Source: Actinopolymorpha cephalotaxi
GTDB lineage: Bacteria > Actinomycetota > Actinomycetes > Propionibacteriales > Actinopolymorphaceae
Direction of reading: 5' to 3'
DNA: 64,000 nucleotides
Assembly: GCF_013408535.1 (NCBI RefSeq)
Contig: NZ_JACBZA010000001.1
Coordinates: 1,426,001-1,490,000 of the forward strand
Part shown: positions 26,434 through 55,910 of the stretch, in pieces
Position numbering within the stretch: position 1 is the first letter of the stretch
How the letters are laid out: each line of letters begins with the position of its first letter
Position numbers and translations under genes: made by a program
The notes under the pieces: model-generated
The model's database searches: none
What the model saw: only the letters and a program-made list of their open reading frames with translations
Told to the model about the DNA's origin: nothing

Positions 26434-27465
26434 GTGTTCGTGGCGGCAGTCGACTCCGGCCCCATCGCTTCTGGCCCCACCACCTCGGGGTCGCGCACCT
26501 CGGGCCACCGCACCTCCGACGACCGCACCTCCGGGCCGCGCGCGGGGGACGGGCACACCTCCCCGCCGCGCCGGGCGCACTGGCGGGACGTCGTGGCGGC
26601 GTACGTCGCGCTCACCAAGCCCCGCATCATCGAGCTCCTCCTCGTCACCACCGTGCCGGTGATGTTCCTCGCCCAGCGAGGCGTCCCGTCGCTCGGCCTG
26701 GTGTTCGCCACGATGGTCGGCGGCATCGCCGCCGCGGGCAGCGCCAACACCCTCAACTGCGTACTCGACCGCGACATCGACGAGCGGATGCGCCGCACCC
26801 GCCGGCGGCCCCTGCCCCGGCACGCGGTGGGCCCGCGCAACGCCGCGGTCTTCGGCCTCGTGCTCGGCCTGGTCGCGACGCTGTGGCTGGGCTTCCTCGT
26901 CAACTGGCTGTCGGCCGGGCTCGCGCTGGCCGCGAACGCGTTCTACATCCTCGTCTACACGCTGGTGCTGAAGCGGCGTACGTCACAGAACATCGTGTGG
27001 GGCGGCATCGCCGGCTGTTTCCCGGTGGTGATCGGGTGGACGGCGGTACGCGGTTCGCTCGACTGGGCGCCCCTCGCGCTGGTGCTGGTGGTGTTCTTCT
27101 GGACGCCGCCGCACACCTGGACGCTGGCGATGCGCTACCGCGAGGACTACGCCGAGGCCGGCGTGCCGATGCTGCCGGTGGTCGCCACCGAGCGCGCCGT
27201 GGCCCGGCAGGTGGTGGCCTACTCCGCCGCGACGGTGCTGGCCTCCCTGGCGCTGTGGCCGATCGCACCGACCGGCTGGCTGTACCCCGTCGCCGCCGCC
27301 GTGCTGGGCGCCGTCGTCATGGTGGAGGCGTTCGCGCTGGTACGCCGGGTGGCGCGCGGGCAGACCGGTCCCGCGCTGCGGCCGATGCGCTTCTTCCACT
27401 GGTCCAACCTCTACCTCGCGCTGTTGTTCGTGGCGGTCGCGCTCGACCCGCTGCTGACCCGCTGA
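26434..27465 (+). CDS. ctaB: Protoheme IX farnesyltransferase (heme O synthase)
   Basis: Membrane prenyltransferase that farnesylates heme b to heme O for cytochrome oxidase. About 343 residues with a low-complexity Thr/Ser/Gly/Arg N-terminus, then about nine hydrophobic helices. UbiA-family marks are [49 protein letters not shown] (the Asp-rich Mg-diphosphate motif), [23 protein letters not shown] and [30 protein letters not shown]. The start is uncertain: GTG 26434 and GTG 26440 are both possible, and the frame is open upstream. It pairs functionally with ctaA (33021-32011) and SURF1 (63760-62813). Confidence 0.93.
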
Positions 27466-39165: not shown

Positions 39166-41261
<2,096 letters not shown>

Positions 41262-55112: not shown

Positions 55113-55910
55113 ATGGCGGCTGGCGGCGGGTCCGGTGGTGTCTTCGAGGACGACCGCTCCGTGGGCGCCTGGCTGCGTACGGCCGGCACAGTCACCGTCC
55201 TCACCGGCGCCGGGATCTCCACCGACTCCGGCATCCCGGACTTCCGCGGCCCGAACGGCGTGTGGACCCGGGACCCGAAGGCCGAGCGCCTGTCCACTCT
55301 GCAGGACTACCTCGCCGACCCCGGCCTGCGCGCCGAGGCGTGGCGCCGCCGACTCGACCACCCGGCCTGGTCGGCCCGGCCCAACCCCGCCCACACCGCA
55401 CTTGCCCGGCTGGAGGAAGCCGACCTGGTGGCCGCGGTCGTCACGCAGAACATCGACGGGCTGCACCAGCGCGCGGGGTCGCGGCGGGTGATCGAGATCC
55501 ACGGCACGATCTGGTGGGTGACCTGCGTGGACTGCGGGCTTCGTACGCCCATGCGCGACGTGCTGGCCCGGGTGGAGACCGGCGAGGCGGACCCGCGCTG
55601 CCTGCGCTGAGGCGGCATCCAGAAGTCGGCGACGATCTCGTTCGGGGAGTCGCTGGACCGCGCGGTGCTGCTGGCCGCGCAGGAGGCGGCCCGCGCGTGT
55701 GACCTGCTGCTCGCGATCGGTACGTCGCTGCAGGTCCACCCGGCGGCCGGCCTGTGCGACGTCGCGCTGCGGGCGGGTGCCCGGCTGGTCGTGGTCAACG
55801 CCCAGCCGACGCCGTACGACGACGTGGCGTCGGCGGTCCTGCGTACTCCCATCGGCGAGGTGCTGCCCCGGCTGGCCGACGAGGCGACCGGCCACCCGGA
55901 GCTCTCGTAG
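55113..55910 (+). CDS. Sir2-family NAD-dependent deacylase with an in-frame TGA at a zinc-ligand position
   Basis: The NAD-binding and catalytic parts are intact: VLTGAGISTDSGIPDFRGPNGVWT, VVTQNIDGLHQRAG and catalytic His130 in IEIHGTIWW. The zinc module has Cys138, Cys141 and Cys163, but codon 166 (55608-55610) is TGA where the fourth Cys belongs (R-C-L-R-[TGA]-G-G-I-Q-K-S). The frame continues without damage through ISFGESLD, LLLAIGTSLQVHPAAGL and VVVNAQPTPYDD to TAG at 55908. Read through, the product is 265 residues, normal for the family. Either TGA encodes selenocysteine or a C-to-A change has truncated the protein at 165 residues. The two cannot be separated from this window. Confidence 0.85.
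55629..55653 (+). other. Possible SECIS-like stem-loop after the sirtuin TGA
   Basis: GCGA (55629-55632) pairs with TCGC (55650-55653), and CTC (55637-55639) with GAG (55647-55649). The left side has a CGAT bulge and the apical loop is GTTCGGG. The loop begins 29 nt after the TGA with a G in first position, within the geometry described for bacterial SECIS elements. The stem is short, and such structures arise easily by chance in GC-rich DNA. Confidence 0.25.

Follow-up and report, generated by a model that had tools for sequence, protein, structure and literature searches.

A TGA codon at the fourth zinc-ligand cysteine of the only PF02146 sirtuin of Actinopolymorpha cephalotaxi, probably a recent nonsense mutation

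The interrupted sirtuin frame

When a sirtuin gene carries TGA exactly where its relatives encode a zinc-binding cysteine, is this codon read as selenocysteine, is it a new stop, or is it an error in the record? The question is raised by a reading frame at positions 55113-55910 (+ strand) of the window, by which we mean the whole 64,000-nucleotide stretch of the Actinopolymorpha cephalotaxi genome that was analyzed. The frame specifies a CobB-type NAD-dependent protein deacylase (PF02146, NF040867, NF001753) of 265 residues with one interruption, a single in-frame TGA at codon 166 (55608-55610, + strand), and it ends in TAG (55908-55910), 99 codons further on. Cys138, Cys141 and Cys163 are each encoded by TGC, and in the alignment the TGA replaces the codon for the fourth zinc-ligand cysteine of the relatives. 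The initial annotation had described a sirtuin with TGA at the fourth zinc cysteine and an otherwise undamaged frame, and this description was confirmed by frame reading, by alignment and by PF02146. The read-through product scored 153 bits against PF02146 (cut-off 24), and a genome-wide search with the same model gave 148.5 bits for the locus, with one TGA inside the match. At E ≤ 0.001, no other PF02146 match was found in the genome, a single contig of 6,858,585 bases. Scores against the two NCBIfam models were 254 bits for NF040867, below its cut-off of 320, and 242.7 bits for NF001753 (cut-off 243). The gene is flanked by an SDR oxidoreductase gene on the − strand, and an alpha-L-fucosidase-like gene lies downstream.

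If the ribosome stops at the TGA, the product would comprise the N-terminal 165 codons (55113-55607, + strand), in which the alignment places GAGIS, QNIDGLHQ, a catalytic histidine and three zinc cysteines, with the roles that we take these elements to have. The 99 downstream codons (55611-55907, + strand) are intact and, based on alignment and codon comparison, still conserved (GTSLQV, VNAQPTPYD). We defined a functional sirtuin as a four-Cys zinc module and a complete Rossmann fold in one chain; read by the standard code, translation stops after residue 165, short of this definition.

We consider it likely that a nonsense mutation recently changed codon 166 of the sole PF02146 sirtuin in the genome from TGC to TGA, by a C-to-A substitution in the codon of the fourth zinc cysteine. 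Ribosomes would stop there and release a 165-residue fragment short of one zinc ligand and of the last 99 residues, among them conserved motifs of the NAD-binding fold. With this ligand gone and the fold lacking its C-terminal part, the truncated sirtuin would very probably be inactive. In other sirtuins, changes of the zinc cysteines abolish or lower activity, and the zinc is structural, according to the accessible part of PMC4691645. Both that the TGA acts as a stop and that its base call is correct are points that we infer.

Relatives, selection and the quality of the record

What would be expected of a recent nonsense allele was found, namely intact relatives, one disabling change and no long-term decay. 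Codon 166 was TGC or TGT in all seven genomes compared, five of the same genus and two of the same family, and the sirtuin of the closest sister, the congener G004, was 95% identical to that of A. cephalotaxi over the aligned residues. In each of 121 sirtuin loci from other genomes, the five congeners included, the four zinc positions were all cysteine (29 + 80 + 12 loci, with L003 and L080 coming from the same genome). Across the class, 98 of 394 genomes had a match at E ≤ 1e-60. A stop fell inside the match in four of these 98, namely A. cephalotaxi and three genomes with a terminal stop; the other 97 thus divided into 94 without an internal stop and three with a stop at the gene end. A second TGA sirtuin in other species was found neither among the 121 loci nor among the class matches at E ≤ 1e-60. 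Stop-containing matches examined as candidates for a recurring TGA sirtuin (e.g. L024, L031, L209, L212) were rejected: they keep the four zinc cysteines, and among the matches listed their stops were terminal, located before the start, or not seen within the aligned residues. The comparison of TGA versus TGC in close relatives, which had been proposed as a check, returned cysteine in all of them. Alone, this is still compatible with a new Cys-to-Sec change, since such changes are known to occur and TGC in relatives is no exclusion by itself (PMC1794560, in its available part).

Codons at which A. cephalotaxi differs from three agreeing congeners were counted as private changes. Besides the TGA, the sirtuin has 4 nonsynonymous and 13 synonymous private changes, of which 1 and 4, respectively, lie past the TGA. 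On the sister branches, the nonsynonymous share of private changes was 1/6, 5/18 and 7/14. As far as codon comparison can tell, selection acted on the gene along most of its branch, until recently; an old pseudogene was rejected, the 4 nonsynonymous versus 13 synonymous changes being within the sister-branch range. The pattern fits a recent nonsense mutation, an error or a decoded TGA equally.

The position of the TGA is somewhat unusual for a nonsense mutation. In the compared part of the G004 gene, 55 one-step nonsense changes are possible, of which 4 fall on a zinc cysteine and 6 on any cysteine, so that, were every change equally probable, about 7% of them would land on a zinc cysteine, which is mildly notable. 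A TGA on a cysteine codon one step away, in a CxxC setting and in a genome that makes selenocysteine, counts against a nonsense mutation, as does the lack of decay after the TGA, which would be expected of a read-through protein too.

A sequencing or assembly error, in which the true base would be C, codon 166 would be TGC and the sirtuin would be normal, is possible and is less likely than a nonsense mutation. The locus does resemble what an error would leave behind, a lone substitution in a gene that is intact elsewhere, has been under selection and has cysteine in all relatives checked. Set against this are the assembly of the genome as one contig of 6,858,585 bases and a comparison of 584 kb of A. 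cephalotaxi with 600 kb of G004, in which coding-like frames were used and a match was counted at 75% or more. In this comparison 374 of the 413 coding-like G004 frames were matched, and 14 internal stops were listed in A. cephalotaxi, 7 of them tagged clean by script. When the clean-tagged stops were judged by eye, which is no formal test, 6 of the 7 lay in spurious or doubtful frames and the sirtuin alone was convincing. Across the 584 kb, no other convincing case came up in 374 gene comparisons, so nonsense events are rare here, and the assembly gives no impression of being full of errors. In the reverse direction, 363 frames were compared, with 14 stops, 6 tagged clean, and 5 frameshift-like cases, the same number of frameshift-like cases as on the A. 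cephalotaxi side (5). The filter on coding-like composition had been added after 184 kb and 200 kb were first compared without it, when 19/114 and 18/115 frames came out as interrupted, mostly spurious ones; with the filter, the figures were 5/115 and 6/110.

Frameshift-like differences from G004 were located on the A. cephalotaxi contig (G000:C1) at about 1384266-1385760 (L190) and about 1501398-1502784 (L193), with more in the 584-kb comparison. Genuine pseudogenes, differing start sites or indel errors could account for them.

Selenocysteine machinery and the hairpin of the lineage

A selenocysteine-containing sirtuin, with UGA 166 decoded via SelB and tRNA-Sec and a zinc site made of three cysteines and one selenocysteine, is in our estimate very unlikely. 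The initial annotation had named a genome without selenocysteine machinery as grounds for giving up this reading, and here the machinery proved to be present: tRNA-Sec(UCA), selA, selB, selD and an fdhA gene with one in-frame TGA are clustered at about 6.642-6.650 Mb of the A. cephalotaxi genome. The tRNA-Sec, with anticodon TCA (UCA), scored 75.2 bits (cut-off 47); the remaining 22 of 23 matches did not pass the cut-off. The scores of selA and selD were 423 and 388 bits, while that of selB, which adjoins selA, was marginal, at 243.1 bits with its neighbors in frame and a cut-off of 242.25. In a survey of eight genomes of the family, selA was over the cut-off in 7, selD in 7, and a TGA-fdhA was present in 6; the searches for tRNA-Sec and selB covered the A. 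cephalotaxi genome only. The sirtuin TGA is exactly at a cysteine position, with a partner cysteine beside it, and no decay follows it. Two features of a selenoprotein gene are seen, the encoded tRNA-Sec, SelA, SelB and SelD and a TGA aligned with the cysteine of homologues, and two are missing, the SECIS type of the lineage and, among the loci checked, TGA-containing homologues in other organisms.

Two further matches were noted elsewhere in the window. ARAGORN called a tRNA-Ser with the odd anticodon ACT at 27191-27282, which is probably a chance match; Rfam at gathering threshold gave no RNA family in the window. At 40374-40709, within a 500-codon frame, there was a weak match to the SelA model (20.6 bits), probably another PLP enzyme, and similar weak SelA matches occurred on the sirtuin-bearing contig of G001, G002, G003, G005 and G006.

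The SECIS-type hairpin of the lineage was determined from fdhA and selD. The fdhA stretch around the selenocysteine codon was searched in 148 genomes of the class, of which 42 matched, with 45 matches, 35 of them with TGA. The loci read numbered 35 (30 of the 45 matches, with their DNA, and five family members), 32 with TGA and 3 with TGC; the matches outside this set comprised 8 with TGA and 7 without. In all 32 TGA-fdhA loci a hairpin of the form CCC-[GA]GU[CU]U-GGG places its loop 18 nt beyond the TGA; in A. cephalotaxi fdhA the hairpin is CCC-GGUCU-GGG, at the same distance. None of the three Cys-fdhA loci had the hairpin. FdhA occurs in selenocysteine and cysteine forms across the class, and the cysteine forms L175, L184 and L187, compared with the other loci of L160-L189, were without the hairpin loop and with the protein conserved.

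A selD gene with TGA near its start was present in three of the five congeners searched (G001, G002, G004). In G001 this Sec-type selD (G001:C13:48074-48994) coexists with a Cys-type selD, in G002 (L077) and G004 (L078) it is the only high-scoring selD, and in A. cephalotaxi (G000), G003, G006 and G007 only Cys-type selD was found. Within one genus, SelD switches between selenocysteine and cysteine forms. The Sec-type selD genes of G002 and G004, the two that were read, carry a GGUCC loop on a tight stem 32 nt after the TGA. That two unrelated genes, fdhA and selD, have an RGUYY loop in common suggests that the SelB of the lineage needs this loop type. The motif was defined after the fdhA and selD sequences had been seen, and its last position was widened for selD, so that its score there is in part built in; when at least 5 Watson-Crick pairs were required, only 15 of the 32 TGA-fdhA loci passed. 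Against an independent background, an RGUYY loop with at least 3 Watson-Crick pairs at the right distance followed 0 of 473 cysteine codons, taken from coding-like frames in 184 kb of the A. cephalotaxi genome.

After the sirtuin TGA this hairpin is absent, though it is common to the unrelated fdhA and, in two congeners, Sec-type selD. No RGUYY loop was found 14-37 nt after the TGA, even without any pairing requirement. A covariance model (R1), run with filters off over 55608-55690, gave the coding strand no more than 1.3 bits, compared with 31.4 bits for fdhA and 27.9 bits for the sister selD, both of which are in the model. A genome-wide R1 scan returned at least 14 matches; weaker sites were perhaps missed, because 150 of 16,101 first-look candidates were scored. 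Among the matches listed, only that of fdhA follows, on the same strand, an in-frame TGA in a long frame, with 496 codons preceding the TGA and 510 following it; one further match adjoins a TGA with 103 codons before and 27 after.

The stem-loop that the initial annotation had offered as a sign of selenocysteine (55636-55647, + strand; loop GUUC at 55640-55643, 29 nt after the TGA) formed in a 63-nt fold and not in a 48-nt fold. It is at most a generic bSECIS match without the RGUYY loop of the lineage. Compared with shuffled sequences, the sirtuin fold had z-scores of −0.28 at 63 nt (71/200 shuffles at least as stable) and −0.85 at 48 nt (38/200), the latter next to −0.97 for fdhA and −1.57 for selD, and overall fold energy, unremarkable against shuffles, was set aside as a discriminator; a control stretch from G004, shifted a few bases out of register, was left out of this comparison. 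In a 45-nt fold the sirtuin, at −17.6 kcal/mol, was the strongest of eight sirtuins (others −8.5 to −14.5).

A generic bSECIS, as given in the accessible part of PMC13188914, has a loop of 3-9 nt with G in the first two positions, a stem of 4-16 bp, a distance of 16-37 nt from the TGA and an MFE ≤ −7.5; the same part describes bacterial SECIS elements as variable, some lying outside the consensus. The sequence downstream of the sirtuin TGA fits a simplified form of this rule, as the selenocysteine reading would have it, but among codons from mechanically chosen long frames of the window, so do 124 of 229 cysteine codons and 1649 of 3000 picked at random. Generic bSECIS scoring was dropped for this lack of discrimination in a GC-rich genome. 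The best sirtuin hairpin by the simplified rule (loop GGAGUCG, spacing 35, −4.7 kcal/mol) differs from the annotated one, and 63 of the 229 cysteine codons had a hairpin at least as strong. By contiguous-hairpin energy, one of the 32 TGA-fdhA loci (L183, −3.3) scored weaker than the sirtuin, so hairpin strength alone is no discriminator. Part of the annotated hairpin is also present in the cysteine-encoding sister G004, as an apical hairpin with a GUUCG loop and 4 pairs.

At 55629-55634, A. cephalotaxi has GCG ACG where three congeners have GCC ACC. These adjacent, synonymous private changes, 7 and 8 codons past the TGA, give better pairing beneath the apical loop, and one of them completes a stem. 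Since GCG ACG also stands in G003, G005 and G007, it may be ancestral and not the outcome of changes on this branch. An explanation by SECIS-building substitutions was rejected, as a hand-made binomial gives about an 18% chance for 2 of the 5 private changes past the TGA to fall within the first 14 codons. It would be highly improbable for the locus to be a newborn selenoprotein, with a Cys-to-Sec change within one species, a Cys3-Sec zinc site and a SECIS unlike that of FdhA; the two synonymous changes would then be the first steps in building a SECIS, a proposal that shares the slim chances of the whole reading.

The nature of the site adds to these doubts. The zinc site of sirtuins is structural, not catalytic (available part of PMC4691645), Cys-to-Sec changes are described mainly for redox-active cysteines (available part of PMC1794560), and no further TGA sirtuin was present among the loci checked. 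The latter source, as far as accessible, infers 33 bacterial Cys-to-Sec events in 17 families. Selenocysteine in a sirtuin is not an absurd idea, because such changes are real in bacteria; the signal is absent, though. In a limited literature, the words 'sirtuin' and 'Sir2' did not occur in the accessible text of PMC13188914, PMC12013277 and PMC9312934. Of the two readings that had been put forward for the locus, a new nonsense mutation or sequence error is supported, while selenocysteine is disfavored by the missing hairpin, by the cysteine of all relatives checked and by the generic nature of the annotated stem-loop.

Comparison with known systems

Either one actinobacterium has probably been left without its sole PF02146 sirtuin or a base in the record is wrong, and neither outcome matters much. 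A caution follows for selenoprotein hunting in GC-rich genomes: selenocysteine machinery, TGA at a cysteine position and a generic bSECIS match are together insufficient, because over half of the cysteine codons tested meet the generic rule. The lineage's own hairpin did separate the TGA-fdhA loci read from 473 background cysteine codons. Were the selenocysteine reading true, the locus would present a selenoprotein that has only just arisen, and a structural zinc site that contains selenium.

The locus can be set beside four known systems. With CobB/Sir2-type sirtuins (PF02146, NF040867, NF001753) it shares a frame that is alignable over its whole length, three of the four zinc cysteines and the conserved motifs; it differs in that the fourth zinc cysteine codon is TGA and ordinary translation ends at 165. 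The selenocysteine-containing FdhA of A. cephalotaxi likewise has an in-frame TGA where some relatives have cysteine, in a cell with the same SelB and tRNA-Sec, whereas a CCC-GGUCU-GGG hairpin (or its AGU[CU]U variant) follows the FdhA TGA and nothing similar follows that of the sirtuin. Sec-type selD of G001, G002 and G004 also has an in-frame TGA, there near the gene start, and, in contrast to the sirtuin, an RGUYY-loop hairpin (GGUCC, 32 nt; read in G002 and G004 only). With recent nonsense pseudogenes the sirtuin has in common a single stop in an otherwise intact gene, intact relatives and selection until recently; what sets it apart is that its stop, a TGA, coincides with a zinc cysteine, as in 4 of 55 one-step changes.
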